Position numbers and translations under genes: made by a program | Notes under the pieces: model-generated | Database searches by the model: none | Told to the model about the DNA's origin: nothing | The model's input: the letters and a program-made list of their open reading frames with translations, nothing else | Shown: positions 2,459 through 21,449 of the stretch, in pieces | Position numbering within the stretch: the stretch's first letter is position 1 | Layout: each line of letters begins with the position of its first letter | Virus record (IMG/VR): IMGVR_UViG_3300025680_000013 | Coordinates: 1-22,184 of that record | Reading direction: 5' to 3' (one strand) | DNA length: 22,184 bases | Source of the DNA: a virus

Positions 2459-2597
2459 CCAACTGCGTGAAGAATTTAAGATGGCAAACATGAATAACTC
2501 TCGAGTCATGCAGATCATTGATACGCTATATGCGGAAAACCAAGAACTCAAACGTCTAATGACAATGAAGTTCAAAGATATAGACGATGAGCAATAA
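2436..2597 (+). CDS. hypothetical short helical protein (53 aa)
   Basis: A strong ribosome site (GGAGG at 2424-2428) precedes this 53-residue frame, which overlaps the DUF3310 gene by 23 nt and the terminase gene by 11 nt. The sequence is nearly all predicted helix, with hydrophobic residues at heptad-like spacing (LQIDQLREEFKM, then MQIIDTLYAENQELKRLMTM) and an acidic end (DIDDEQ). A short coiled-coil dimer is likely. I do not recognise a family. Its location directly before TerL is where some phages keep a small terminase partner, so a packaging accessory is one possibility, but that rests on position only. Confidence 0.55.
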   Translation: MDIKLQIDQLREEFKMANMNNSRVMQIIDTLYAENQELKRLMTMKFKDIDDEQ

Positions 2598-4143
2598 AAA
2601 AGAGCGCAGTAAAAAAGCACTCAGTGGTCCGGGCATTGACCTGGACTTTAGCACATCGCCGGCGGTATATGGATTCTTACAGTCTAATAAGTTTGTCCGC
2701 GGACTAATGGGACCAGTTGGGTCAGGCAAATCATACGCCTGTGCTGCTGAGATTATGATGCGTGCCGTTAGACAAAAGCCCTCCCCACAGGATGGCATTC
2801 GCTATACCCGTTTTGTCATCGTACGAAACTCGTATCCAGAACTTAAGACTACCACAATTAAGACATGGCAGGAGTTATTTCCTGAGAATACTTTTGGTCC
2901 AATGTTATATACCCCACCCATCACGCACCACATACGTCTCCCCTCCAGAGGAGATGCTGCGGGAATCGATTGTGAGGTCATATTCTTAGCATTGGATCAA
3001 CCTAAAGATGTAAGAAAACTATTATCACTTGAACTAACGGGGGCGTGGGTTAATGAAGCTAGAGAACTTCCTAAGGCAGTTATTGACGGTCTTACTCATA
3101 GGGTGGGTCGTTATCCTACTCAGCGTGATGGTGGTCCTACATGGCATGGTGTTTGGATGGATACCAACCCAATGGATGACGATCATTGGTGGCATCGTCT
3201 AGCAGAGAAAGAACCGATTACCGGTAAGTATGGCTGGGACTTCTTTCAACAACCCGGTGGTGTTATAGAAGTACCGATAGATGAACTACCAGATAATCCA
3301 GAAGCAAACGATCATATCTTTGCTAGTGGACGATGGTGGAAACTGAATCCTAAAGCAGAGAATGTAAAGAACTTACCAGCAGGTTACTATTCACAAATGT
3401 TGGGTGGTAAGAACTTGGACTGGGTGCGCTGTTATGCTGAGGGTAAATATACTTACGTACAAGAAGGCAGACCTGTATGGCCGGAGTACGATGATAATTT
3501 AATGAGTTCAGATGAGGTAGAGTACGATCCTAACCTTCCATTACATATTGGTCTTGACTTTGGTTTAACTCCAGCAGCAGCTATTGGTCAGCGCCTAGCA
3601 AATGGACGTTGGGTTGTATTACATGAGATAGTTACTGAAGATATGGGACTAGAAAGATTTGGTAATCAGTTACTAGCTGAACTCAATGCTAGGTACCCTA
3701 AGGCACAAGTGTTAGTGTGGGGCGATCCTGCTGGTATGCAACGTGATGCTATCTATGAAGTAACAGCCTTTGACTACTTACGTACATTAGGACTACGCGC
3801 ACAGCCAACTGCATCTAACAACTTCAGAGTAAGACGTGAAGGGGCAGCAGCTCCAATGCAACGATTGATTGCCGGTAAGCCAGGTCTAATGATACACAAG
3901 TCATGTAAGATGATTCGTAAGTCATTGGCTGGTGGTTATCATTTTAAACGTGTAGCAGTTGGTGCGGGCCATGAGCGATTCAAAGATAGTCCAAACAAAA
4001 ACGAACACTCACACATTGGTGATGCGTTTGGCTACTTAATGTTAGGTGGTGGTGAACATAAGCGCATGACTAAGAGTCCATTAGCTGCTAGTACATTGAT
4101 TGCGCCAACAGTTGCAGGGAGTGACTTTGACGTCTTTTCTTAA
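2587..4143 (+). CDS. terL: terminase large subunit (packaging ATPase and nuclease)
   Basis: The 518-residue protein has both terminase domains. In the N-terminal ATPase, Walker A is GPVGSGKS (42-49), the adenine-motif region is FVIVRNSYPEL (77-86), a Walker B-like strand ends TGAWVNEARE with the acidic N-E pair (156-157), and DTNP (192-195) fits the coupling motif. In the C-terminal RNase H-like nuclease, metal ligands are D324 in HIGLDFG, D380 in VWGDPAG and D479 in HSHIGDAFGYL. TerL docks on the portal, translocates DNA into the prohead and cuts the concatemer. The length is normal for short-tailed phages. The ATG overlaps the preceding short gene. The gene lies upstream of the portal rather than after the tail genes as in T7. 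Confidence 0.95.
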   Translation: MSNKKERSKKALSGPGIDLDFSTSPAVYGFLQSNKFVRGLMGPVGSGKSYACAAEIMMRAVRQKPSPQDGIRYTRFVIVRNSYPELKTTTIKTWQELFPENTFGPMLYTPPITHHIRLPSRGDAAGIDCEVIFLALDQPKDVRKLLSLELTGAWVNEARELPKAVIDGLTHRVGRYPTQRDGGPTWHGVWMDTNPMDDDHWWHRLAEKEPITGKYGWDFFQQPGGVIEVPIDELPDNPEANDHIFASGRWWKLNPKAENVKNLPAGYYSQMLGGKNLDWVRCYAEGKYTYVQEGRPVWPEYDDNLMSSDEVEYDPNLPLHIGLDFGLTPAAAIGQRLANGRWVVLHEIVTEDMGLERFGNQLLAELNARYPKAQVLVWGDPAGMQRDAIYEVTAFDYLRTLGLRAQPTASNNFRVRREGAAAPMQRLIAGKPGLMIHKSCKMIRKSLAGGYHFKRVAVGAGHERFKDSPNKNEHSHIGDAFGYLMLGGGEHKRMTKSPLAASTLIAPTVAGSDFDVFS

Positions 4144-4621
4144 TCAACAATATTTAGATAAGTTCATGCCAAGCGTGACTGGAGTTACTTATCGAGTTTA
4201 TCAACCATATTATGTAGAACAATATAAAGGATTAGACAACTATGGGTTTCCACACATGTCGGCTCAAGATAGAAAGAATCATATCAATCATCAGTCTGAA
4301 TGCGGTCCATCTGTTGCTGTTTTCGTTGAGCGTGATCTTGTCGCTATTTTTGGTATGGTGCTTGTATGGAAGGGTGTGGGTGAGGCGTGGTCTACTTTCG
4401 ATGAGAAAGCTAGACGATACCCAATAGCTATGACTAAGTCTGCATTTACATTCTTTGATATCTGTGAGATATTATTTAATTTACATAGAGTGCAAATTAC
4501 GGTAGACTCCAGTGATAGTCGAGCTATGCGATGGGCAAAATGCTTAAAGTTTGAATCAGAGGGTTTGATGAAAGAATATAGTTCAGATAAGAAAGATTAT
4601 CATATTATGAGGAGAAAGTAA
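4127..4621 (+). CDS. T7 gp13-like internal virion protein, acetyltransferase (GNAT) fold
   Basis: The sequence fits the GNAT-fold proteins related to T7 gp13. A GPSVAVFVERDLVAIFGMV strand pair is followed by GVGEAWSTF, a helix of about 20 residues, the strand HRVQITVDSS, and the typical C-terminal S(D)SRAMRWAKCLKFESEG segment with a final YHIM strand. The acetyl-CoA pyrophosphate loop (Q/RxxGxG/A) is not clear, so catalysis is doubtful. In T7, gp13 is needed for proper virion formation. No good ATG exists at the 5' end. TTG at 4127 lies 5 nt after AGGGAG and is my choice; TTG 4100, GTG 4121 and ATG 4166 are alternatives. The gene overlaps TerL by 17 nt. Confidence 0.75.
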   Translation: MTSFLNQQYLDKFMPSVTGVTYRVYQPYYVEQYKGLDNYGFPHMSAQDRKNHINHQSECGPSVAVFVERDLVAIFGMVLVWKGVGEAWSTFDEKARRYPIAMTKSAFTFFDICEILFNLHRVQITVDSSDSRAMRWAKCLKFESEGLMKEYSSDKKDYHIMRRK

Positions 4622-4622
4622 C

Positions 4623-4865
4623 ATGGGTGGTTTATTTGGAGGAACGCCAGATAATTCAGCTGCTATGGCTCAGATTGAACAATCTCGTAAAGAGACAGAG
4701 CAAGCAAGAGCTGACGCACAAGAAGAGAAAAGAACATTGCAAGAAGAGATGGCAGCAAAGAAAAGAGCAAGACTTGCTGGCGGATCAAGAGCGCTTTTAT
4801 CTGATACAAGATTAACACCAGAGACTGGCATCGATGATGAAGCTAGTACAACACTAGGAGGATAG
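4623..4865 (+). CDS. small T7 gp7.3/6.7-like candidate virion protein, Arg/Gly motif (80 aa)
   Basis: A strong site (GAGGAGAAAG) precedes the ATG. The 80 residues start MGGLFGGTPDNS, continue with a long charged helix (about 12-50, rich in Gln/Glu/Lys/Arg) and end with RARLAGGSRALLSDTR followed by an acidic segment and TTLGG. The RxRxxGG...LL block recurs in the genes at 4870 and 5856. Small T7 virion proteins such as gp7.3 also end in a Gly/Arg/Ser-rich tail, so a tail- or head-associated accessory is a reasonable guess. No enzymatic motif is present. An overlapping frame at 4627 is a shadow with a codon pattern unlike the neighbours. Confidence 0.6.
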   Translation: MGGLFGGTPDNSAAMAQIEQSRKETEQARADAQEEKRTLQEEMAAKKRARLAGGSRALLSDTRLTPETGIDDEASTTLGG

Positions 4866-4869
4866 TATT

Positions 4870-5079
4870 ATGGGTGGAGTAGTAAAATCAAAACCAAAAG
4901 CAGCAGCACCGGCGCCAGCACCAAAGCCTGTACCAGTTATTAAAACAAGAGATGTAGGTGCTGAAAGAGAAGCGGCTACGTTAAGGTCAAGACGTGGAAG
5001 AGCAGGTGGCTTGTTAGCTAAAGCATTGCCATCAGAAATGGAAACTGCCAACACATTAGGCACTAAAACAAAAGTATAA
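4870..5079 (+). CDS. small Pro/Ala-rich candidate virion protein, Arg/Gly motif (69 aa)
   Basis: AGGAGGAT at 4856-4863, which includes the previous stop, is a very strong ribosome site for the ATG at 4870. The protein begins MGGVVKSKPK, has a flexible Ala/Pro run (about 11-24), then a charged helix and the block RSRRGRAGGLLAKAL (about 40-54), ending TLGTKTKV. The MGG start, the RxGRAGG-LL block and the TLG near the C terminus resemble the upstream 80-residue protein, so the two may be diverged tandem duplicates. T7 gp7.3 is the nearest characterised analogue I can name. Function is inferred only from composition and place between terminase and portal. Confidence 0.6.
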   Translation: MGGVVKSKPKAAAPAPAPKPVPVIKTRDVGAEREAATLRSRRGRAGGLLAKALPSEMETANTLGTKTKV

Positions 5080-5095
5080 TTACCTAGGATAACAA

Positions 5096-5668
5096 ATGGG
5101 GTTAAAGACAATAAGAAGCGAGTTGCTTTCTGATGCTGATTCAGTATCTGCATTAGAGCTTGCTGCTAGTTTAAAAGAAAGACAAGATCCTAGTATTAGC
5201 AAAGAATCTATTGTTGATACCGTTATACTGCCTATAGCATATCATGAGTCTCAACTAGATCCACAAGCTAGGCAAAAGATAATTAAGCGTGGCGTAGAGG
5301 TAGATGGACCAGGAAAAGGGTTAATGCAATTTGAGGACGCGTCACTATACACCGCATCTAAAAGAGCAAAAATGTTACTTGAAAAAAACAACCAGAAAGT
5401 TCCTTCTTACATACAAAAGGTAATTGATCGAAAGATTACTGATGCATCTAAACTAACCACTGGACAACAGTCAGCATTAGCTGTTTATGATTTGTTGCAG
5501 AAACCTAAAGCTAATATTGCTTTGGTAACTTCTGGAGTAGAAAGTATTAAGATGCTATGGGAAAATTATTGGTGGGCAGGGAAGAGAAACAAACCGACAA
5601 GACGTGCTAAATTTTTAGATGATTACAAGTCGTATCTTTTAGATTATCGCGATAACATTAAAGACTAG
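5096..5668 (+). CDS. putative lysozyme-like peptidoglycan hydrolase (SLT-type)
   Basis: The 190-residue protein has the key marks of a lysozyme-superfamily domain. A helix ending IAYHESQLDPQA places a Glu (E51) where lytic transglycosylases carry the catalytic acid (the ES in xxES). GPGKGLMQFE (71-80) matches the GxxGLMQ turn that follows. The remainder is helical and has a WENYWWAGKRNKPTRRAKF segment near the C terminus, known to me from phage proteins of this type. No signal peptide or membrane helix is seen. Its site among virion genes rather than a lysis cassette suggests a virion-borne enzyme that opens the peptidoglycan during DNA entry. It could instead be an endolysin, since no other is visible here. 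AGGA at 5086-5089 serves the ATG. Confidence 0.65.
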   Translation: MGLKTIRSELLSDADSVSALELAASLKERQDPSISKESIVDTVILPIAYHESQLDPQARQKIIKRGVEVDGPGKGLMQFEDASLYTASKRAKMLLEKNNQKVPSYIQKVIDRKITDASKLTTGQQSALAVYDLLQKPKANIALVTSGVESIKMLWENYWWAGKRNKPTRRAKFLDDYKSYLLDYRDNIKD

Positions 5669-5676
5669 GAGCTAAC

Positions 5677-5853
5677 ATGGCAGAACCAAAGCTAACAAAG
5701 AAACAAAAAGAAATGCTGAAGAAGCAAATGGAAAAGAAGATGGACGAAAAGACTGACGAAGGCTATGACAAGTATTATGAAGATGAAGAAAAAGACAACA
5801 AAGCCGACAGAGAAAAAATGATGAAAGTCCTTAAAAAACTACTAGGTAAATAA
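5677..5853 (+). CDS. hypothetical highly charged lysine-rich protein (58 aa)
   Basis: AGGAGC at 5667-5672 serves the ATG, so the gene is very likely translated. Of 58 residues about 17 are Lys and 15 are Asp or Glu, with almost no bulky hydrophobics until the VLKKLLGK end. It reads as two charged helices (LTKKQKEMLKKQMEKKMDE and the EDEEKDNKADREKMMKVLKKLL part) joined by a YDKYYEDE segment. It is not similar to any named family that I can recall. Small charged proteins of this kind cluster between terminase and portal in many podoviruses and are sometimes found in virions. The function is unknown. Confidence 0.55.
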   Translation: MAEPKLTKKQKEMLKKQMEKKMDEKTDEGYDKYYEDEEKDNKADREKMMKVLKKLLGK

Positions 5854-5855
5854 AT

Positions 5856-6119
5856 ATGCAAAATAATACATGGTCATCTGAGTTAAAAGGCGGTCCACTC
5901 TTGGCTAGGCTGTTTACAGAACTGACATTAAAAAAAGAAAAAAACCCTGAGAAAAAGGCATTTTTGGAGAAAGCTAGAAAAGCTTTATATTCGCCAACAG
6001 AGCAAGTTAATGCAAGCAAACAAGAAGCAGTAAGAGAAAAAAGTGATGTAGCATCTACTTCCGCTGCAAGAAGAAGGGCCATGCGAGGCAGATCAGGTTT
6101 GATGTCAACAATAAGGTAA
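5856..6119 (+). CDS. small basic candidate virion protein, Arg/Gly C-terminal motif (87 aa)
   Basis: The ATG follows the previous stop by two bases, with only a weak AGGT upstream, so coupling is likely. The N-terminal half is amphipathic (WSSELKGGPLLARLFTELTLKKEK), then a charged middle leads to a basic C-terminal end, SAARRRAMRGRSGLMSTIR. That end matches the RxRxG(G/S)xL block found in the proteins encoded at 4623 and 4870, here placed exactly at the C terminus as in T7 gp7.3-type tails. I infer a third member of a small virion-protein set. No enzyme motif is visible. Confidence 0.55.
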   Translation: MQNNTWSSELKGGPLLARLFTELTLKKEKNPEKKAFLEKARKALYSPTEQVNASKQEAVREKSDVASTSAARRRAMRGRSGLMSTIR

Positions 6120-6123
6120 AGAT

Positions 6124-6261
6124 ATGTGGAGCTGGCATTTATATTGGGGTATGGGTTTTGGTGTTGAATGGACTGAGTCTGAATGGCATTCAGGTGAGAT
6201 TATCTCTCACTTCTTAATTAACATAGGATGCTTACGCATTCAATATAGTGAGTGGGCGTAA
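6124..6261 (+). CDS. hypothetical Trp-rich mini-protein (45 aa)
   Basis: AAGG at 6113-6116 is correctly spaced for the ATG, and the stop shares a base with the next start (TAATG). The 45 residues hold six Trp and several aromatic or Gly residues (MWSWHLYWGMGFGVEW), then a hydrophobic stretch ISHFLINIGCLRI. It is too polar for a confident membrane helix and looks more like a tiny beta-sheet protein. The family is not recognised. Its compact fit between two genes on the same strand, with no spare bases, argues for a real gene. Confidence 0.5.
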   Translation: MWSWHLYWGMGFGVEWTESEWHSGEIISHFLINIGCLRIQYSEWA

Positions 6262-6845
6262 TGGCTATTAATGTAAAAAGAGAATCAGATACCACGAATT
6301 CTAGGTACGTTGTATTAACACAAGCTGACATAGATAATAACCAGCAGGTTACTGGTAGTGAAAGACCACTAATCGTTGTTAATACTAATCATCATAGGCT
6401 ACATGAAGGGCGTGCATATTTTTTATATGAAAACAGAACTAATGGTACACCTTTAGCAGATGGTGCTTCAATAGATTTTGTGATTGCCTCAGGTAGTGGT
6501 ACAAACATGCACATAACATTTGGTGCAATTTGTGGTGGCGATGCAGAATTATATTTATATGAGGGAGCAACTGCCTCAGGTGGCACTAGCGTAACCGCTG
6601 TTAGAAGAAATCGCACTATTAGTAACACAAGTAATACAGCAGCTTTATTAGACCCAACAGTAACTAATGTAGGAACAGAGTTATTTGCTGAGTTAGTAGC
6701 TGGTGGGATTAAAAAGAAAGCAGGTGGTGGTGATGGTGGTTCGTTAGAATATATCTTAAGCCCATTAACTACTTATTTAGTTCGATTAACTAATGTAAGC
6801 AATGCTGCACAATACGCAACTTTGGAGTTAGAATGGTATGAATAA
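6261..6845 (+). CDS. putative virion structural protein (194 aa, beta-sandwich-like)
   Basis: I start the gene at the ATG at 6261, which overlaps the previous stop; the GTG at 6252 would lie inside the upstream gene and has no ribosome site. The 194-residue protein alternates short hydrophobic strands with Asn/Thr/Gly-rich turns (YVVLTQADI, RPLIVVNT, AYFLYENRT, DAELYLYEG), and ends YLVRLTNVSNAAQYATLELEWYE. The same ending is typical of phage proteins kept near portal genes and usually called structural. A Gly-rich loop (AGGGDGG) interrupts the last third. No enzyme residues are seen. A capsid decoration or head fibre role is a guess from fold type and location. Confidence 0.6.
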   Translation: MAINVKRESDTTNSRYVVLTQADIDNNQQVTGSERPLIVVNTNHHRLHEGRAYFLYENRTNGTPLADGASIDFVIASGSGTNMHITFGAICGGDAELYLYEGATASGGTSVTAVRRNRTISNTSNTAALLDPTVTNVGTELFAELVAGGIKKKAGGGDGGSLEYILSPLTTYLVRLTNVSNAAQYATLELEWYE

Positions 6846-6975
6846 GCCAGGATTATACGCAAACATTAATGCAAGAAAGAAAGCAGGTACTAGCAGGACT
6901 AAAAAGAAATCAACTATATCTGATAAAGCTTATGCACAGATGAAAGCTGGCTTTCCTAAAAAGAAGAAAGCTTAA
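6838..6975 (+). CDS. small lysine-rich phage protein (45 aa)
   Basis: GGAG at 6824-6827 precedes the ATG, and the gene overlaps the previous one by 8 nt. The 45 residues begin NKPGLYANINARKKAG, a start I recognise from short basic proteins that sit beside portal genes in many phages (GLxANIxAKRKR type). They end with KAGFPKKKKA. Eleven Lys and three Arg and the lack of a hydrophobic core suggest an unstructured nucleic-acid- or capsid-binding peptide. The family role is not known. Confidence 0.65.
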   Translation: MNKPGLYANINARKKAGTSRTKKKSTISDKAYAQMKAGFPKKKKA

Positions 6976-6977
6976 CT

Positions 6978-7250
6978 ATGCCTGCTAAAAAATATCAAAA
7001 TCCAGAGGGTGGACTTAATGAAGCAGGAAGAAAACACTTTAAAAAAACAGAAGGTGCTAACCTTAAAAGACCGCAAGGATCTGGCACTGATAGTCGGCGT
7101 GTATCTTTCGCTGCTCGTTTTAGCGGTATGGCTGGACCTTTAACAGACGAGAAAGGTAGACCAACAAGATTAAAACTTGCATTAAAGAAATGGGGTTTTG
7201 GTAGTAAAGAAGCAGCACGTAATTTTGCAAACAGACATAAAAAAGGATAA
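6978..7250 (+). CDS. DUF6321 family phage protein (90 aa)
   Basis: The sequence matches the DUF6321 pattern along its whole length. NPEGGLNEAGRKHFKK (8-23) opens the domain, GTDSRRVSFAARFSGMAG (36-53) is the highly conserved centre, and RLKLALKKWGFGSKEAARNFA (64-84) closes it. The protein is small and very basic. The family is common in phages with this head module and usually lies directly before or near the portal or among packaging genes, as here. No function has been established to my knowledge; a virion or DNA-linked role fits the charge and neighbours. Confidence 0.8.
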   Translation: MPAKKYQNPEGGLNEAGRKHFKKTEGANLKRPQGSGTDSRRVSFAARFSGMAGPLTDEKGRPTRLKLALKKWGFGSKEAARNFANRHKKG

Positions 7251-7252
7251 TC

Positions 7253-8833
7253 ATGGTAGCAATGATGAGATTAACAGCTGAAGATGTTTTAAACAGACAT
7301 GAAAAAGCTTTAATTAGAAAAGAAGATTTTAGAAACTTATACGAAGAAGCCTATGAGTTTGCATTACCACAGCGCAATCTGTATGACGGACATTATGATG
7401 GTAAGGTCGGTGGCAGTAAGAAAATGAATCGTGTGTTTGATTCTACTGCAATCAGCTCTACTCAGCGTTTTGCAAACAGGATGCAGTCAGGCATATTCCC
7501 TCCACAAAGAAAATGGTGTAGGTTAGAACCAGGACCAGATATTCCTGAAGAACGAAATGCTGATGCACAAGCAGCGCTAGATGTCTATAACGAAAGATTG
7601 TTTGCTGCATTAAAGCAGTCTAACTTTGACATTGCCATTGGTGAGTTTTTGTTAGACTTGTCTGTAGGTACTGCGGTTATGATGGTTCAACCAGGTGATG
7701 ATATTAATCCAATTAACTTTATTCCAGTTCCACAATACCTTGTTTCAATTGAGGAAGGCGCTAATGGTCAAGTAGATAATGTATATAGACGTATGCGTAT
7801 CAAAGGTGAAGCAATACAAAGACAATGGCCTGAAGCAAAAATTCCATCAGAACTACAAAAGAAAATAGATCAAAAGCCAACTGACGAAGTTGAACTAATT
7901 GAAGCAACGGTATTAGATCAAAAGCGTGGTGACTATTGTTATCATATTATACACAAAGAATCCAAGACAGAATTGCTCTACAAAAGAATGGAATATAGTC
8001 CTTGGGTTGTGTCTAGGTACGCTAAAGTTGCTGGTGAAATATATGGGCGCGGACCATTAATCACTGCAATGCCTGACATTAAAACACTAAATAAAACATT
8101 AGAGTTGTTACTTAAAAATGCTTCTCTAGCTATTAGTGGTGTGTATACAGCAGCTGATGACGGAGTGCTTAATCCAAATACGGTGAAGATTATGCCTGGT
8201 GCTATTATTCCTGTTGCACGTAATGGCGGACCACAAGGTGAATCACTTAAAGCTTTACCAAGAGCTGGTGACTTTAATGTATCACAAATTGTTATTAATG
8301 ATTTGCGAATGAACATTAAACGCACATTGTTAGATGAGTCATTACCTCCAGACAACATGTCAGCACGTTCTGCTACTGAGGTTGTAGAAAGAATGAAAGA
8401 ATTATCACAGAACCTCGGCTCTGCATTTGGTAGGCTCATTAATGAAACAATGATTCCTTTAGTATCCAAGATGTTGCAGGTGATGGATCAGCGTGGCATA
8501 ATAGACTTACCACTTAAAGTCAATGGACTTGAGATTAAGATTTCTCCAGTAGCGCCATTAGCTATGGCACAAAACATGGATGAAGTACAGAACATCTTAC
8601 AATACGCACAGATTGCACAGCAAGCTGGACCACAAGGACAAATGGCTATTAAAGTTGATGTTATGTTAGATCATATTGCAGAGAAGCTAGGTATACCTCA
8701 GAAATTGAGACCTACCCCACAAGAGCGCATGATGATGCAACAACAGATGGCACAACAAGCACAACAGATGGCGCAACAAAATCCTGAGATGGCTACTCAA
8801 GTAGCGGAAGCTGCGATTAAAAAACAAGGATAG
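7253..8833 (+). CDS. portal (head-tail connector) protein, T7 gp8-like
   Basis: The 526-residue protein matches podovirus head-tail connectors. Visible family marks are YEEAYEFALPQRNLYD (about 30-45), FDSTAISSTQRFANRMQSG near residue 62, the SVGTAVMMVQPG clip-region strand (about 137-148), YGRGPLITAMPDIKTLNK (about 264-281), and a C-terminal crown segment rich in Met and Gln (MMMQQQMAQQAQQ). Twelve copies would form the ring at one capsid vertex that docks TerL during packaging and later the tail. The length is near T7 gp8 (536). The ATG at 7253 follows AAGGAT; ATGs at 7262 and 7265 would remove only a few residues. Confidence 0.93.
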   Translation: MVAMMRLTAEDVLNRHEKALIRKEDFRNLYEEAYEFALPQRNLYDGHYDGKVGGSKKMNRVFDSTAISSTQRFANRMQSGIFPPQRKWCRLEPGPDIPEERNADAQAALDVYNERLFAALKQSNFDIAIGEFLLDLSVGTAVMMVQPGDDINPINFIPVPQYLVSIEEGANGQVDNVYRRMRIKGEAIQRQWPEAKIPSELQKKIDQKPTDEVELIEATVLDQKRGDYCYHIIHKESKTELLYKRMEYSPWVVSRYAKVAGEIYGRGPLITAMPDIKTLNKTLELLLKNASLAISGVYTAADDGVLNPNTVKIMPGAIIPVARNGGPQGESLKALPRAGDFNVSQIVINDLRMNIKRTLLDESLPPDNMSARSATEVVERMKELSQNLGSAFGRLINETMIPLVSKMLQVMDQRGIIDLPLKVNGLEIKISPVAPLAMAQNMDEVQNILQYAQIAQQAGPQGQMAIKVDVMLDHIAEKLGIPQKLRPTPQERMMMQQQMAQQAQQMAQQNPEMATQVAEAAIKKQG

Positions 8834-8836
8834 ATT

Positions 8837-9100
8837 ATGGCAGGATGGGATGATTTAGAACAAGCACTACCTCTTGACGTACGTGATGTTAGTCAAGCTA
8901 GAGATGATTTAGATCGCTTAACATTAAGAGTGTTAGGTGATGAAGACGGAAAGAAACTGATGGATTGGTTACGCCAATCTATTTTGGAGCAACCCGTAGC
9001 CTTGCCGGGAAGCGATCCTAGTTATGCATTTTATCGAGAAGGGCAAAATTCGTTAATTAGGGATTTAGAAGCAAGGATAATTAGAGCAAGGAAACTATAA
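8837..9100 (+). CDS. Bbp19-like small phage protein (87 aa)
   Basis: The 87 residues fit the small Bbp19-like phage domain. There is a helix around RVLGDEDGKKLMDWLRQSIL (31-50), a loop with PGSDPSYAF, and REGQNSLIRDLEARIIRA (67-84), where the REGxxxLIRxL helix is the usual signature. Members are short and sit between portal and scaffold or capsid genes, as here. The role is unknown, and it is absent from T7 itself. AAGGAT before the ATG is the ribosome site; the stop shares a base with the scaffold start (TAATG), so both are probably made in a fixed ratio. Confidence 0.65.
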   Translation: MAGWDDLEQALPLDVRDVSQARDDLDRLTLRVLGDEDGKKLMDWLRQSILEQPVALPGSDPSYAFYREGQNSLIRDLEARIIRARKL

Positions 9101-9906
9101 TGGAAGAAGCAATCGAGCCTAGTGTTCAGGAAACTGAATCGACTGGCCTACTCGATGGAGCAATGCCAGAAACCGAGGAAGTTAGTCAAGATACAAATGC
9201 AGTAGAAATAGATCATCGTGATCCAGCAGAACTACAAGCAAAGCAAGATTATGAAAATGCTGATGATGAACCATTAGAAAGACCCGATTGGTGGCCAGAA
9301 AACTTTTGGAAAGGCGAAGAAGCTGAACCAGATTTAGAAGCCATAGCAAAATCTTGGACTGACCTTAGGAAACAAATATCTCAAGGTAAACATAAAGCAC
9401 CTGCTGATGGCAAGTATGATACATCAGCTTTTGGTAATACACCTGAAGATGACCCAGTTAGAAAGCATGTTATGGATTGGGCAAGAGATAATAGCGTTAG
9501 TCAATCAGCTTTAGATCACCTAGTTGGTAAAGTTGTAGACATGGGAGCTATGCAACAAGAAACATTCCAAGTCAACGTCCAACAAGAAATGAAGCAGCTT
9601 GGACCTAATGCTGATGCCAGAATTAACGGTATGAAGAAATGGGGCGCAAGCCTTGTAAGCAAAGGAATATGGTCTAATGATGATTACGAAGAGTTTACTA
9701 TCATGGGTGGTACAGCAAGAGGTATCAACGCATTAGAGAAGCTTAGATCATCTTATGAAGGCAGTGTTCCAATAGAAGCAGCTCCAGTTGAAGGCGCACC
9801 TTCTAAAGACGAACTATATCAAATGGTTGGTGACGAGAAGTATAAGAATGACCCAGCCTATCGTGCTAAAGTAGAAAAGCTTTTCGCTCAAAACTTCGGC
9901 TCGTAA
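9100..9906 (+). CDS. capsid assembly scaffolding protein
   Basis: This 268-residue acidic protein has the usual podovirus scaffold organisation. A disordered Glu/Asp-rich N-terminal third leads to RPDWWPENFWKGE (61-73), then SWTDLRKQISQGKHKAPADGK (85-104) and DDPVRKHVMDWA (117-128), all frequent in scaffolds of T7-like marine phages. A helical core and a short charged C-terminal helix (YRAKVEKLFAQNFGS) follow; in P22 and T7 the C-terminal end binds the coat protein. It would guide capsid assembly and then leave the shell. It directly precedes the major capsid gene. Confidence 0.85.
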   Translation: MEEAIEPSVQETESTGLLDGAMPETEEVSQDTNAVEIDHRDPAELQAKQDYENADDEPLERPDWWPENFWKGEEAEPDLEAIAKSWTDLRKQISQGKHKAPADGKYDTSAFGNTPEDDPVRKHVMDWARDNSVSQSALDHLVGKVVDMGAMQQETFQVNVQQEMKQLGPNADARINGMKKWGASLVSKGIWSNDDYEEFTIMGGTARGINALEKLRSSYEGSVPIEAAPVEGAPSKDELYQMVGDEKYKNDPAYRAKVEKLFAQNFGS

Positions 9907-9910
9907 TTCA

Positions 9911-9939
9911 TTGCAAATAAGCCTTATCTGTGGTATATT
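9911..9939 (+). promoter_or_regulatory. sigma70-like promoter candidate with extended -10, upstream of capsid gene
   Basis: TTGCAA (9911-9916) resembles a -35 box (4 of 6). After exactly 17 bp comes TATATT (9934-9939, 5 of 6), preceded by TGG, which supplies an extended -10 (TGn). Transcription would begin near 9946, giving a leader of about 145 nt before the capsid ATG. It is placed in the only large gap of the head module, where extra transcription of the most abundant protein would be useful. Host polymerase use is inferred, since no phage RNA polymerase is present in the window. Confidence 0.5.
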
Positions 9940-9951
9940 CATGGGTAAGGC
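9921..9951 (+). other. stem-loop overlapping the capsid promoter candidate
   Basis: GCCTTATCT (9921-9929) pairs with GGGTAAGGC (9943-9951) over 9 bp, including two G-U pairs, around a 13-nt loop. After a one-base mismatch a further AATA/TATT can pair outside. No T-run follows, so it is a poor intrinsic terminator. In the read-through transcript it could slow polymerase, mark a processing site, or act as a protein-binding operator at the DNA level. Confidence 0.45.
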
Positions 9952-10003
9952 ATATTGTAAAGCACCATCATACAACCCTTAATGCAAGTAACCTTGTCGA
10001 ATG

Positions 10004-10041
10004 GCTATCGTAAATAGCAAGCACAGGCCCAGACTTTCTGG
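10004..10041 (+). other. two small hairpins in the capsid mRNA leader
   Basis: GCTAT-cgtaa-ATAGC (10004-10018) forms a 5-bp stem with a 5-nt loop. CCAGA-ctt-TCTGG (10029-10041) forms a perfect 5-bp stem with a 3-nt loop. Both are short and could occur by chance. They lie inside the predicted leader, upstream of the AU-rich stretch that leads to the ribosome site, and may protect or space the mRNA 5' end. Confidence 0.3.
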
Positions 10042-10075
10042 CATACCAAAGCGATTAAATTTTATTTTTAATTTC

Positions 10076-10082
10076 TAAGGAG
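10076..10082 (+). promoter_or_regulatory. strong Shine-Dalgarno site for the capsid gene
   Basis: TAAGGAG is a near-perfect anti-16S match, 8 nt before the ATG at 10091, preceded by an A/T-only stretch that should stay unpaired. It is among the strongest sites in the window and fits very high capsid protein output. Confidence 0.7.
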
Positions 10083-10090
10083 AAACAACA

Positions 10091-10933
10091 ATGGCTATTG
10101 GATTATCTAATGCTTTTGTAACACTCTTTGATGCCGAAGTTAAGCAGGCTTACCAAGCGAAAGCACAATTGGTTGGTGCAACTAGACAAAGACGCGGCGT
10201 TGAAGGTGCAACAGTAAAATTCCCTAAAGTTGGGAAAGGCGTGGCTACACTACGTGTACCACAAACAGACGTAACTCCACTTAATGTGGACTTCAGTCAA
10301 GTAACAGCTACACTCGAAGATTGGAATGCAGCTGAATACTCAGACATTTTCATGCAACAAAAAGTTAATTTTGACGAAAGACAAGAGTTAGTTCAAGTAG
10401 TAGCGAACGCTATTGGCCGTAGACAAGATCAATTGATTCTTGACGCACTTGCTGCTTCAGGTACATCTAACACAGTTGCCAACGACATTGGTGGTACTGA
10501 CACAAACCTTAACGTAGCTAAACTACGTGAAGCTAAGAAGTTACTAGATAAGAACAACGTGCCACCGCAAGATCGTCACATTCTTCTTCATGCTAACAAC
10601 CTAGCATCTTTACTATCAGAAACAGCAGTAACATCATCTGACTTTAACACTGTTAAAGCTTTAGTTGCTGGTGAAATCAATACATTCTTAGGTTTCACAT
10701 TCCACACATTAGGCGATCGTGCTGAAGGTGGTTTAGCTGTTGATGGTTCTTTAGATAGAACTCTTTTTGCATTCCATAAAGAATCTATGGGTTATGCTGA
10801 AGGTATTGGTCCTAAAACAGAAATCAACTATGTACCAGAAAAAACATCATTCCTTGTGAATGCTATGTTCTCTGCTGCATCAGTAGCGATTGATGCTGAA
10901 GGTATTGTTCAACTCACATGTCGTGAATCTTAA
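10091..10933 (+). CDS. major capsid protein
   Basis: The 280-residue protein fits the compact phage capsid family with an HK97-type fold. Visible marks are the start GLSNAFVTLFDAEVKQAYQ (4-22), KFPKVGKGVAT (43-53), the strand and loop VTPLNVDFSQVTATLEDWNAAEY (61-83), DERQELVQVVANAIGRRQDQLILDAL (94-119, the long spine helix), DRHILLHANNLASLL (161-175) and the C-terminal strand region ending IDAEGIVQLTC. There is no N-terminal delta or protease region, in keeping with a separate scaffold gene. It is shorter than T7 gp10A (about 345 residues). Hundreds of copies would form the shell. It has its own promoter candidate and a very strong ribosome site. Confidence 0.9.
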   Translation: MAIGLSNAFVTLFDAEVKQAYQAKAQLVGATRQRRGVEGATVKFPKVGKGVATLRVPQTDVTPLNVDFSQVTATLEDWNAAEYSDIFMQQKVNFDERQELVQVVANAIGRRQDQLILDALAASGTSNTVANDIGGTDTNLNVAKLREAKKLLDKNNVPPQDRHILLHANNLASLLSETAVTSSDFNTVKALVAGEINTFLGFTFHTLGDRAEGGLAVDGSLDRTLFAFHKESMGYAEGIGPKTEINYVPEKTSFLVNAMFSAASVAIDAEGIVQLTCRES

Positions 10934-11281: not shown

Positions 11282-11896
11282 ATGGCAACAGGTGATACCG
11301 ATATTAGAATATGCTCTGACTCATTATTAATGTTGGGCGCAAATCCTATTTCTTCATTTACAGAAGGAACAGATGAAGCAAACATCTGCGACAGACTTTA
11401 TCCTGATATTAAGATTAAAACATTGGCCAGTTACCCCTGGTCTTTCTCATTTAAAAAGGTGCAGTTAGCTAGGCTAATTACGACACCAACCAACGAATAC
11501 AAGTACCAATATCAAATGCCATCAGACATGGTTGGCGTTCCAAGAGCTGTGTACGACACAGCCAGTGTTGGTGGTCCTGTTAGAAAAGAATATAGATTGA
11601 TGGGAGATAAAATACTGACTGACTACGAAAAAGTATACGTAGACTATCAGTATAATGTTCCAGAATATGCATTACCTCACTATTTTGTGCAGTTACTGAA
11701 ATACCAAATGGCTTGGCATCTCGCAATGCCTATTACCGATCAAAATGAAAAGTCTCAATATTGGCAAGTAGTAGCACAAGGAACTCCTGGAGAAAATGGT
11801 AGAGGTGGTTACATGCGCCAAGCTATGAGCATTGATGGACAAGGACAACCTACCAATGCATTCCAAGACTTCTCACTTATTGACGTGAGATATTAA
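11282..11896 (+). CDS. tail tubular protein A (gp11-like)
   Basis: The 204-residue protein fits the gp11 family of podovirus adaptors. The N-terminal helix block DIRICSDSLLMLGANPISSF (6-25) with DEANICDRLYPDIKIKTLASYPWSFSFKKVQL (31-62) is the usual signature, and the C-terminal half has YVDYQYNVPEYALPHYFVQLLKYQMAWHLA. Twelve copies would form the ring between portal and nozzle. GGAG at 11271-11274 serves the ATG. The stop shares a base with the start of the next gene, so the two tail-tube proteins are translationally coupled. Confidence 0.9.
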   Translation: MATGDTDIRICSDSLLMLGANPISSFTEGTDEANICDRLYPDIKIKTLASYPWSFSFKKVQLARLITTPTNEYKYQYQMPSDMVGVPRAVYDTASVGGPVRKEYRLMGDKILTDYEKVYVDYQYNVPEYALPHYFVQLLKYQMAWHLAMPITDQNEKSQYWQVVAQGTPGENGRGGYMRQAMSIDGQGQPTNAFQDFSLIDVRY

Positions 11897-13878
11897 TGGC
11901 TCGCTTTGTAAGCATACAAACTAACTTTACATCCGGTGAACTAGATCCATTATTGCGTTCACGTGTAGACTTAAAGGCTTACGAAAACTCTGCTGAAAAA
12001 GCACAAAATGTTATATGCCAACCTCAAGGTGGAGTAACCCGCAGACCTGGTACAAAGTTTATTAATGAGCTTGGTGGTAGTCCAGAGAATGGGATTAGAT
12101 TAGCGTCGTTTGAGTTTTCAGTAGATGATAGTTATATGTTGTGTTTTACTACAAACAGAATGTATGTCTATAAAGATAAAGTGCTAATTACCAACATTAA
12201 TGGTTCTGGTAATGATTATTTAGATACCACAGGGTATGGGCTGGTAGGATCTCATTTAGATCATATGTGTTGGACACAGTCTGCTGACACACTTATTGCT
12301 GTTGATGAACATGATGCCCCAGTAAAGATTGTTCGTGGCGCTACAGACAGTTCATGGAGCATTACTAACATATCATTTGCTAGCATACCTAAGTATGCAT
12401 TTACATTAACAACTAGCAATCCAGCAGGCAGTATTACTCCTAGTGATGTATCAGGCAAGGTTACTATTACAGCAACATCTGGTGTATTTAATGCAAGTCA
12501 TGTTGGTCAATATATCAATGCATCTCCACAAGGCAGAGCAAAGATTGTTAAATATACTAGCGCAACATCAGTCAATGTAGTAACAGAATTTCCATTCTTT
12601 GACACTACGGCTACCACTACAGGTAACTGGGAGTTAGAAACAGGGTATGAGGATGTATGGTCCAACAGTAGAGGATGGCCTAGAACTGTTACGTTCCATC
12701 AAGGTCGTTTATACTTTGGCGGATCTCAATCAAGGCCGTCAACTATATGGGGTTCTAAAGTAGGATTATTCTTTGATTTTGAAGCCGTGGAAGGATTGGA
12801 TGATGACGCTGTTGAAGCTACCCTCGATACTAATACTTATAATGCTATCACTGATATTATTTCTGGCCGTGATTTGCAAGTGTTTACTACGGGCGGTGAG
12901 TTCTACGTTCCGCAAGAAGGATTAACACCTATTACACCATCGGACTTCTTCTTCTCCACTACATCGCGTATTGGCTCAAAAGAAGGTATCCGTGTTAAAC
13001 AACTAGAATCTGGCGTTCTCTTTGTGCAAAGACAAGGAAAGTCATTATCTGAGATTGCGTATTCTGATACACAGCTAACTTACTTAACATCTAAAATATC
13101 ATTATTAGCCGGGCATCTTTTAAAGAATCCTAATAGGATGGACTTACGAAGAGCTGTTGCTACAGATGAAAATGACTTGTTATTATTAGTTAATGAAGAT
13201 GATGGTAGTATTGCAGCATTCTCACTACTAAGATCACAGAATGTTATTGCGCCATCACAGTTTACCACTGAAGGTAATTTTCTTGATGTTGGTGTAGATA
13301 TTACCGATATTTATACCGTAACTTCAAGAGATGATGGAGGGACAACTAGATACTACGTTGAGGTATTCGACAACACTACACTAACCGATTGTGCGGTAAT
13401 AGGAACTACATCTCCTACTGCCGATATGAGTCATCTGGTTGGGCAGGTAGTACATGTTATTTCAGATGGTTACGTTGAGTCAGATCAAACAGTACCCGCT
13501 GGCGGAACAGTAACATTTACAAACCCACCTGCCACCTCAAGTGAAGTAGGACTACCAATACATGTAGAGATTAAGACTATGCCAATTGACCTTAAGATTC
13601 AATCTGGCACTAGATTAGGATTTAGAAAACGAATTGTTGAGGTTAATGCTTTAATATTGAATACTCAAAATTTAGTGATTAATGGAAACCTAGTTCCTAT
13701 TAGGTCATTAGGACTAGATGTAGTTGGAACCGCAGTGCCAGAATTTACAGGGACTAAAACTTTACATGGTATACTAGGTTACAACAGCGATGGGCAAATC
13801 ACTGTGACACAAAGCGCCCCGCTTAAGTTTACATTGTTAGGGTTAGAATATAAAGTGTCAGTACACCAAGGAACATAA
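11896..13878 (+). CDS. tail tubular protein B (gp12-like nozzle)
   Basis: The 660-residue protein matches gp12-like tail nozzles. The start block FTSGELDPLLRSRVDLKAYE (11-30) with GGVTRRPGTKFI is typical, as is VTFHQGRLYFGGSQSRPSTI (265-284), followed by WGSKVGLFFDF, the hallmark of the family. The rest is beta-rich, as expected for the beta-propeller of the nozzle. It is shorter than T7 gp12 (about 794). Six copies would close the tail end and bind the fibres. It overlaps the gp11-like gene by one base and is followed after 2 bases by the gp14-like gene. Confidence 0.9.
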   Translation: MARFVSIQTNFTSGELDPLLRSRVDLKAYENSAEKAQNVICQPQGGVTRRPGTKFINELGGSPENGIRLASFEFSVDDSYMLCFTTNRMYVYKDKVLITNINGSGNDYLDTTGYGLVGSHLDHMCWTQSADTLIAVDEHDAPVKIVRGATDSSWSITNISFASIPKYAFTLTTSNPAGSITPSDVSGKVTITATSGVFNASHVGQYINASPQGRAKIVKYTSATSVNVVTEFPFFDTTATTTGNWELETGYEDVWSNSRGWPRTVTFHQGRLYFGGSQSRPSTIWGSKVGLFFDFEAVEGLDDDAVEATLDTNTYNAITDIISGRDLQVFTTGGEFYVPQEGLTPITPSDFFFSTTSRIGSKEGIRVKQLESGVLFVQRQGKSLSEIAYSDTQLTYLTSKISLLAGHLLKNPNRMDLRRAVATDENDLLLLVNEDDGSIAAFSLLRSQNVIAPSQFTTEGNFLDVGVDITDIYTVTSRDDGGTTRYYVEVFDNTTLTDCAVIGTTSPTADMSHLVGQVVHVISDGYVESDQTVPAGGTVTFTNPPATSSEVGLPIHVEIKTMPIDLKIQSGTRLGFRKRIVEVNALILNTQNLVINGNLVPIRSLGLDVVGTAVPEFTGTKTLHGILGYNSDGQITVTQSAPLKFTLLGLEYKVSVHQGT

Positions 13879-19697: not shown

Positions 19698-21449
19698 ATG
19701 GCAATTGATATATCAAACACAACTAGGCGCATAGTCTATACAGGATCTGCTGGTACAGGTCCTTATGCTTTTGCGTTCGAGGTATTGTCTGAAACAGACA
19801 TTGCCGTATACTTCAATGAGACTGAACTTACACTTACTACTGATTATACAGTATCTATTAGTGGTACTGGTACAGGTAGCGTAACTATTGTTGTTGGTGT
19901 GAATGTACCTACTACACCAGACGCTGATGATCGTATTACTATTGTTGGCGATAGAGCCATTGAAAGATCAACAGACTTTACTACTGGTGGCCCTTTATTT
20001 GCTCAAGCATTAAACGATGAGTTTGATAGTCTAACCATCTTTACCCAACAAAACTTAGAACAATCTAACCGATCACTACGCGCACCTAACACTGATCCAA
20101 CTACAGTCAATATGACATTGCCTATCAACACTGTTCGGGCAAACAAAACCTTAGCGTTTGATGCTAACGGGGATCCAGTTATTGGTGAGATCATTGGTGA
20201 TAACCGAGGTGACTGGGCAGCAGGAACAACCTATAACAAACGTGACTTAGTTAAAGATACCAGTAACAACAATGTTTACCTCTGTAATACAGCGCATACA
20301 TCCTCTGGTTCACAACCTATATTCACCAATACCGATGCAGCTAAATGGGATCTATTAGTTGATGCAGCTAGTGCAGCGGCAAGTGAAGCAGCGGCAGCAG
20401 CTAGTGCAGCGGCAGCATCTACATCAGAAACTAACGCAGCTACATCAGAAACTAATGCAGCGACTTCTGCTAGTACAGCAACAACCAAAGCTAGTGAAGC
20501 TTCAACAAGTGCAAGTAACGCAGCAGCTTCTGAGTCTAGTGCTTCAAGTAGTGCAAGTTCAGCGAGTACATCTGAAAGTAACGCAGCCACTAGCGAAACC
20601 AATGCGGCAACATCAGAAACTAATGCAGCCACTAGCGAAACCAATGCAGCATCAAGTGCATCATCCGCATCGACATCAGCTTCTACTGCAACAACACAAG
20701 CAGGCATAGCAACCACTCAGGCAAGCAATGCGGCTACATCTGCATCTAATGCAAGCACCAGTGAAACTAACGCAGCTGCTAGTGCGACTAATGCTTCCAA
20801 TGCACAGACTGCTGCTGAAGCTGCACAGACCGCAGCTGAAAATGCAGCGGACAGTATTGAAGCTTTTTATCTAGGAGCGCAAGCATCCGATCCTACTGTA
20901 GATGGTAATGGCGATCCTGTAACCGCAGGTGATTGGTACTTTAATACAGTAGCGAATGAGACACGCATTTACAATGGATCAACATGGCAAGTAACGGCTA
21001 TATCTACTGCTGGATTACTAACTACAGCAAACAACTTATCTGACGTAGCTGACGCAGGAACCTCTAGGGCTAACCTTGGATTAGCTATAGGCTCAGATGT
21101 ACAAGCCTATGATGCTGATAACGCGGTGACAGATGCTACTCAAACATTCACTGCCCCACAACGAGGAACAGTTACTGCTGATAATGACCTGTCATTTGAT
21201 ATGAATGTAACTAACAACTTTACTTGTACACCGACAGGTGGAGGTACTCTTACATTTACTAACCATACCGCAGGCCAATCAGGATATATACTTTTAGTTA
21301 ATGGTAGTGACTATGCCATTGCAGCCCATGCTAATACGAAGATTAATGCAGCGGACTTAGCTACTATTAGCACAACAGGTACTTACCTTGTATCTTACTT
21401 TGACAACGGCACTAATGCTTATTTAACAGTTAGTGCATCTTACGCATAA
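19698..21449 (+). CDS. tail fibre protein (T7 gp17-type N-terminus)
   Basis: The 583-residue protein begins with the T7 tail-fibre attachment domain: YTGSAGTGPYAFAFEVLSET (14-33), the TDYTVS and ADDRITIVGD strands, and RSTDFTTGGPLFAQALNDEF (90-109), which binds the tail. Residues 170-222 (GDWAAGTTYNKRDLV, VYLCNTAHTSSG, KWDLL) look like a CBM5/12-type carbohydrate-binding module. Residues 223-385 are an Ala/Ser/Thr heptad region, likely a trimeric coiled coil. The C-terminal part carries GDWYFNTVANETRIYNGSTW (411-430), a LSDVADAGTSRANLGL repeat and a beta-rich tip. The C-terminal tip would contact the host surface. Overlapping frames on both strands here are artefacts of the repeats. Confidence 0.9.
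   Translation: MAIDISNTTRRIVYTGSAGTGPYAFAFEVLSETDIAVYFNETELTLTTDYTVSISGTGTGSVTIVVGVNVPTTPDADDRITIVGDRAIERSTDFTTGGPLFAQALNDEFDSLTIFTQQNLEQSNRSLRAPNTDPTTVNMTLPINTVRANKTLAFDANGDPVIGEIIGDNRGDWAAGTTYNKRDLVKDTSNNNVYLCNTAHTSSGSQPIFTNTDAAKWDLLVDAASAAASEAAAAASAAAASTSETNAATSETNAATSASTATTKASEASTSASNAAASESSASSSASSASTSESNAATSETNAATSETNAATSETNAASSASSASTSASTATTQAGIATTQASNAATSASNASTSETNAAASATNASNAQTAAEAAQTAAENAADSIEAFYLGAQASDPTVDGNGDPVTAGDWYFNTVANETRIYNGSTWQVTAISTAGLLTTANNLSDVADAGTSRANLGLAIGSDVQAYDADNAVTDATQTFTAPQRGTVTADNDLSFDMNVTNNFTCTPTGGGTLTFTNHTAGQSGYILLVNGSDYAIAAHANTKINAADLATISTTGTYLVSYFDNGTNAYLTVSASYA
20364..20852 (+). repeat. Ala/Ser/Thr heptad repeat region in the tail fibre gene
   Basis: About 163 residues are built of seven-residue units like AATSETN and ASTSASN. 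At the DNA level the unit of 23 bases beginning GCAGCCACTAGCG at 20583 returns exactly at 20625, a 42-bp period equal to two heptads. Synonymous changes separate most other units, so the array is diverged rather than freshly expanded. Recombination between units could change fibre length. Confidence 0.8.

Follow-up and report, generated by a model that had tools for sequence, protein, structure and literature searches.

Candidate gp7.3-like proteins with exchangeable N parts between the terminase and portal genes of a relative of OM43 phage MEP301

The window analysed here (the whole stretch of DNA, an IMG/VR virus record of 22,184 bases) comes from a marine phage that is related to the OM43 phage MEP301 and has a T7-type tail. 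The interval between its terminase and portal genes holds three small proteins, A, B and C, in the same genome as a T7-type adaptor and nozzle; their C-terminal tails are related, and in the slot occupied by B the tail is kept among relatives while the N part is exchanged. We consider it probable (roughly 60%) that A, B and C are gp7.3-like small tail-channel proteins which dock by their C-terminal tails and whose N parts are exchangeable. They are best labelled a gp7.3-like set, i.e. a known kind of protein, the new element being the exchangeable N parts.

Results

Gene neighbourhood

MEP301 (a Methylophilales / OM43 phage) aligns with positions 2587-10933 of the window at 93.9% identity over 97% of that stretch. 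The genes follow in the order terminase, putative acetyltransferase, A, B, lysozyme-like protein, 58-aa protein, C, small genes, portal, adaptor and nozzle (Table 1). A sequence-only reading had singled out A, B and C (80, 69 and 87 aa), and the reading frames it gave, the blocks RARLAGGSRALL, RSRRGRAGGLLAKAL and RRRAMRGRSGLM that it quoted from them and the MGG start of the first two are correct. Ribosome-binding sites, read by eye from the upstream bases, are clear for A and B and weaker for C. Scanning A, B and C against Pfam and PHROG turned up no named family that merited follow-up. The acetyltransferase was considered from synteny as a counterpart of T7 gene 7; this was unsupported, with no detectable similarity to T7 gp7. 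The tail-fibre protein (19698-21449) contains a long Ala/Ser/Thr/Asn-rich repeat stretch.

Table 1. Features of the window around the terminase-portal interval and the T7-type tail genes.
Feature	Position	Strand	Remarks
Terminase	starts 2587
Putative acetyltransferase	4121..4621	+	between terminase and A; phrog_4177; GTG start inferred from MEP301 annotation
A	4623..4865	+	80 aa; starts MGG..GG..PD; single long helix predicted at 12-56; C-terminal tail conserved
Tail core of A	4758..4832	+	residues 46-70, KKRARLAGGSRALLSDTRLTPETGI; gp7.3-like spacing
B, small form	4870..5079	+	69 aa; Pro/Ala-rich N part and C-terminal tail
Tail of B	4984..5076	+	residues 39-69, RSRRGRAGGLLAKAL...
Weak lysozyme/SLT-like protein	5096-5668		190 aa, within cassette
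58-aa protein	starts 5677
C	5856..6119	+	87 aa; accessory gene absent from MEP301, B-type tail
Tail of C	6060..6116	+	residues 69-87, SAARRRAMRGRSGLMSTIR
45-aa ORF (MWSWHLYWG...)	6124-6261		counterparts in MEP301 and several contigs
DUF6321 protein	6978-7250		directly upstream of portal; 4.2e-22; similar proteins in relatives
Portal (head-tail connector)	7253..8833	+	PF12236 3.1e-95; downstream limit of cassette
Phage head-assembly gene	at 9100		phrog_1052
gp11-like tail adaptor	11282..11896	+	phrog_394 1.2e-35; part of supposed docking site
gp12-like tail nozzle	11896..13878	+	PF25675 1.4e-6; phrog_376 6.3e-128; supposed docking partner

Protein A

Relatives were collected by a TerL search, the best 80 of at least 600 contigs giving, with the window and MEP301, 82 records. 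Homologues of A were found in 76 of these 82 (tblastn, E ≤ 1e-3), and the six records that have none (L015, L016, L021, L029, L034 and L077) stop 36 to 393 nt past the terminase match. The 57 distinct A proteins have in common the MGG..GG..PD start, a charged helix and a tail GGxRxLLSxxRLxPExG...LG, with G54, R56, L58, E67, G69, L78 and G79 invariant in all 57 rows of the alignment. The earlier description of a basic block near the C terminus holds in so far as the blocks are present; in A, however, the block is followed by 21 residues that are conserved too and is therefore not terminal, and the basicity is local, A being about neutral (net charge -3 for the whole protein and -1 for the last 40 residues). 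The net charge of the whole protein is +9 for B and +10 for C. The A genes of the window and MEP301 differ by three nucleotide changes, all synonymous, which fits a constrained real gene. The AlphaFold2 model of A is a single helix (12-56) with a weakly defined tail. An A-like protein also lies in the terminase-portal interval of Pelagibacter phage Hodr (7.7e-5 of 7038 ORFs), while a pattern search with one A protein over genome contigs gave 594 pattern matches and no relative.

Likeness to T7 gp7.3 and two types of tail

The likeness of the blocks goes beyond chance, since B, C and A come out as the top three (E = 0.0042, 0.0047 and 0.027; the next 1.9) when the 150 six-frame ORFs of the window are searched with a profile built from 11 gp7.3 proteins and no window sequence. 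Residue shuffles reached the real score in 2 of 2000 cases for A and in 0 of 2000 for each of B and C. An enlarged gp7.3 profile (44 T7-like proteins) gave 0.0025 for C, 0.023 for B and 0.56 for A, and no other of the 150 ORFs at E 1. When this profile was run on 7038 ORFs with filters off, the matches at E ≤ 1 were 49 A, 11 gp7.3, five B and three C proteins and no other protein; with default filters they were 20 A, 11 gp7.3 and five B. A profile restricted to the gp7.3 tail missed all three window proteins (A 7.9, B 5, C 0.97).

In hhalign, A against the enlarged gp7.3 profile reached 54% over 60 columns, with 0 of 150 shuffles as good. The hhalign values vary with the alignment used (8.9, 9.7 and 54% for A; 84.5, 39.4 and 33.3% for B) and lie under customary cut-offs. 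Whole-protein profile-profile scores against gp7.3 are modest, yet above every column shuffle; when the tail of B was compared with just the gp7.3 tail, 4 of 200 shuffles did as well. T7 gp7.3 (structure 9jyz) belongs to phrog_1320, annotated as 'host range and adsorption protein'. When 44 A members were scanned against 38,880 PHROGs, this family was matched by 14 of the 44 (E ≤ 0.1, best 0.0027) and the next family by seven. Small-B members matched it in 4 of 17 cases at E ≤ 0.5 (best 9.6e-5), the window's own B falling outside that threshold. The link to gp7.3, proposed in the sequence-only reading, has more support than expected, from the A family, which matches the gp7.3 PHROG most often, from the small-B relatives and from the profile-profile comparison, but not from the window's A taken alone (no match at E ≤ 0.1), and homology is short of formal significance.

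A and gp7.3 share the residue order G-x-[KR]-x-L...R...G-[IV], so that T7 G83-K84-K85-x-L87...R91...G96-I97 is in register with A G54-x55-R56-x-L58...R63...G69-[IV]70. The corresponding spacing pattern, drawn up after A and gp7.3 had been seen, occurs in 77 of 78 A ORFs, 10 of 11 gp7.3 proteins and 0 of 6949 others. It is absent from B, C, the ICP3 stretch, BPP-1, HTVC010P, HMO-2011, P-SSP7 and Syn5, and a loose regular-expression search for the tail core returned A and an unrelated terminase stretch only.

A canonical gp7.3 tail after a charged helix, an architecture resembling that of A, is found in ICP3 gp36 and in contig L116. ICP3 gp36 (L113:4825-5115; NC_015159 18824-19114) matches the gp7.3 profile at 4.4e-15 of 104 ORFs. 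It has this tail despite the statement, in a 2026 preprint, that gp6.7/gp7.3 orthologs are not readily identifiable in Peru-2 or ICP3 (PMC13320782).

The tails of B and C, which read R..GRxGGLL, differ from that of A. A slot-B tail profile from which four MEP301-like records had been excluded gave 1.6e-6 for B, 4.4e-6 for C and 0.54 for A among the 150 ORFs; it thus catches B and C and barely A, so there are two tail types, with B and C close and A related but different. A and B had also been proposed to be tandem duplicates. This is plausible, as none of 200 column shuffles was as good as the real A-B comparison and HTVC010P offers a precedent in its two tandem phrog_831 copies, but it is not proven.

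Slot B and exchange of N parts

Of the ORFs of 60 aa or more that start -40 to +120 nt from the end of A, the longest was taken as the slot-B gene. Among the best 80 of at least 600 contigs, together with the window and MEP301, it could be called in 67 of the 76 A-bearing records, the other nine contigs stopping within 586 nt. In this set slot B is a small Pro/Ala-rich protein at 23 of the 67 loci and a large protein of about 200 residues (147 to 238 aa) at the other 44. The N parts of the two forms are unrelated and the tails correspond. A profile of the large-form tail (last 60 residues), run on 7038 six-frame ORFs, detected 9 of 24 small B proteins at E ≤ 0.01 (11 at E ≤ 1; best 9.4e-14), all three C proteins (0.0014), five A proteins at E ≤ 1 and none of 6879 ORFs outside the A, B, C and large-form classes. 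On the same ORFs, the large-form N-part profile matched the large form only, and the small-form N-part profile matched small B only, plus one other ORF at 0.1. Detection in the reverse direction was poor, small-form profiles reaching few large forms (2 of 44 with the whole protein and 5 of 44 with the tail, E ≤ 1). Besides C, the other ORFs matched by the small-B profile were the B genes of L084 and L085, an 89-aa protein of L008, one gp7.3 and BcepC6B gp04.

On a TerL tree of 67 rows, 52 of them different (a quick tree with SH-aLRT support only), the small and large states of slot B need eight changes, at least five of which are forced by well supported branches. In one pair of loci, L068 (large) and L069 (small), the sequences are 91% identical through the end of A, and their similarity returns where the slot-B gene ends. 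Two further loci, L008 and L020, look chimeric, with a small-type N part and a tail that scores best with large-form tails (104 vs 89 and 96 vs 89). These mixed types point to exchange of parts and not of whole genes alone, the evidence for chimeras being alignment scores at two loci. For slot B, cross-detection of tails, repeated exchange and the chimeras thus show the block kept in related genomes while the rest varies, which is the check that the sequence-only reading had proposed.

In the AlphaFold2 model of a large slot-B protein (L011), a mixed domain takes up about 170 residues, and the tail after it stays below pLDDT 50. This is as expected of a segment that is ordered only when bound, though low pLDDT is no proof of disorder. 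Foldseek with this model gave nothing at E ≤ 0.001. At the position of the window's lysozyme-like gene, L008 has a lysozyme-like protein of another kind, whose start looks signal-like (by eye). In a simple downstream walk from slot B in L010 (protein of 189 aa) and in L049 (177 aa), the portal comes next with few or no listed genes between; the other small genes therefore look dispensable.

Protein C

C is carried by the window, by L003 and L004 and by the near-identical L102 and L103, and by no other record in a direct sequence search of the best 80 of at least 600 contigs and further contigs. The alignment of the window with MEP301 is interrupted from about 5852 to about 6107, so that C is an insertion in the window phage or a loss in MEP301. 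In L008, the gene of a distant counterpart of 89 aa directly precedes that of the portal (19.8 bits, a score reached by 0 of 1000 shuffles).

Comparable proteins in other phages

The closest PHROG for small B is phrog_831, which includes HTVC010P gp03 and gp04 (function unknown) and is matched by 13 of 17 small-B members (E ≤ 0.5, best 1e-5), although the window's own B reaches it at 0.29 only. HTVC010P has its two tandem phrog_831 proteins between terminase and portal, but their tails read GRxSTILTGPxGV...LLGx (by eye). In Bordetella phage BPP-1 the order is terminase, acetyltransferase, bbp23, bbp22, portal, so that bbp22 adjoins the portal upstream; its tail alone matches phrog_831 (positions 39-70, 2.1e-6), whereas its N part differs and the profiles of A, B and gp7.3 all miss it. 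Pro-rich proteins are also encoded between terminase and portal in P-SSP7 and Syn5, where the present profiles miss them too. PDB sequence searches with two A alignments (A2 and A3), HTVC010P gp04 and BPP-1 bbp22 gave nothing convincing, the best match, a cytochrome subunit (0.0089), being taken as a composition effect.

Discussion

Like A, B and C, T7 gp7.3 is small, and it is encoded just upstream of the portal as they are in the terminase-portal interval; it combines a conserved C-terminal loop G-K-[KR]-x-L...R...G-I with a variable N part. There are also differences. T7 is no close relative of the window phage, which carries several gp7.3-like proteins; the tail of A continues to ...TLGG, and A is neutral whereas T7 gp7.3 is basic; B and C are without the exact A/T7 spacing; and the exchange of a folded N part of about 170 residues is not seen among the gp7.3 proteins collected. 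According to the structural report on T7, residues 84-98 of gp7.3 lie at the adaptor-nozzle junction in six copies, K84/K85 contact the packaged DNA at its end, the structure does not resolve the N part and the protein is required for infectivity, its docked tail having been resolved only recently (PMC11784390). That the matching T7 segment docks at this junction and contacts DNA fits the earlier idea of a docking tag for the tail (PMC11784390). In evolved T7, in-frame deletions in gp7.3 clustered around G39-Q55, which is consistent with a tolerant middle of the protein (PMC12798971).

By analogy with T7, the tails of A, B and C, disordered alone, would bind the nozzle-adaptor junction, and the basic residues after the glycine(s), among them R56 of A, which is in register with T7 K85, would touch the packaged-DNA end. 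The N part would then sit in or above the channel and its job would differ: A would have a helix there, small B a flexible arm rich in Pro and Ala, and the large slot-B form a domain of about 170 folded residues. A and B may be two coexisting versions, and C an accessory copy with a B-type tail; since the B/C tail differs from that of A, the two types may bind neighbouring rather than identical sites. If the T7 analogy holds, these proteins would help to assemble or seal the tail and would be the first to leave when the nozzle opens.

The strongest competing explanation, which we nevertheless regard as unlikely, is that A, B and C serve the head or packaging as accessory proteins (scaffold helpers or DNA plugs) and do not belong to the tail nozzle, the binding site of their tails being the portal, the head interior or the packaged DNA. 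The genes do lie between terminase and portal, the blocks are rich in Arg and Lys, phrog_831 as the family closest to small B has no known function, and the only PHROG match of the window's A at E ≤ 0.1, which is also its best, is a head scaffolding family (0.0062). That scaffold match, however, was found for 1 of 44 relatives, against 14 of 44 for the gp7.3 family, and the genome already has a head-assembly gene (Table 1).

T7 encodes gp6.7 together with gp7.3 just upstream of the portal. The former is a small virion protein that forms a 12-copy adaptor between the portal barrel and the core. With two standard proteins in the corresponding place of the window phage, A (or B) might be the gp6.7 counterpart and only the other the counterpart of gp7.3, and the MGG..PD N-ends are, by eye, loosely like the N-end of gp6.7. 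We think this quite improbable, as A and B both point to gp7.3 and as hhalign with 11 gp6.7-slot proteins (phrog_1391) gave 0.24% for A and 0.31% for B. Convergence, with short Arg/Gly/Ala-rich low-complexity ends recurring in DNA-contacting phage proteins without common docking, accords with segments that are short and composition-biased, with modest absolute scores and with the different types of A and B tails, but is very improbable given that composition-keeping shuffles seldom or never reach the scores (except for the tail of B against the gp7.3 tail alone), that other basic small proteins at the same loci are unmatched and that the tail persists through exchanges of the N part.

In the literature searched, we found no virion proteomics of MEP301-type phages, no paper combining gp7.3 and pelagiphage, and nothing on a shared tail. 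If A, B and C are gp7.3-like tail-channel proteins, it is tempting to speculate further, although this is tentative and the less likely outcome, that the C-terminal tail serves as a transferable address label for the tail channel. Phages of the MEP301 type would then retain this docking tail, swap the cargo attached to it (arm, helix or domain of about 170 residues) and add further tagged proteins such as C, the cargoes at the DNA end would be the first to exit the virion, and gp7.3 would be a single example from a widespread class of tagged channel proteins whose genes lie upstream of the portal in T7-tailed phages. Should related tails mark small 'hypothetical' proteins of marine phages far from T7, such proteins would become annotatable and testable, and the repeated swapping of the tail-attached part, if true, would mean that these phages re-tool the plug at the end of their DNA.
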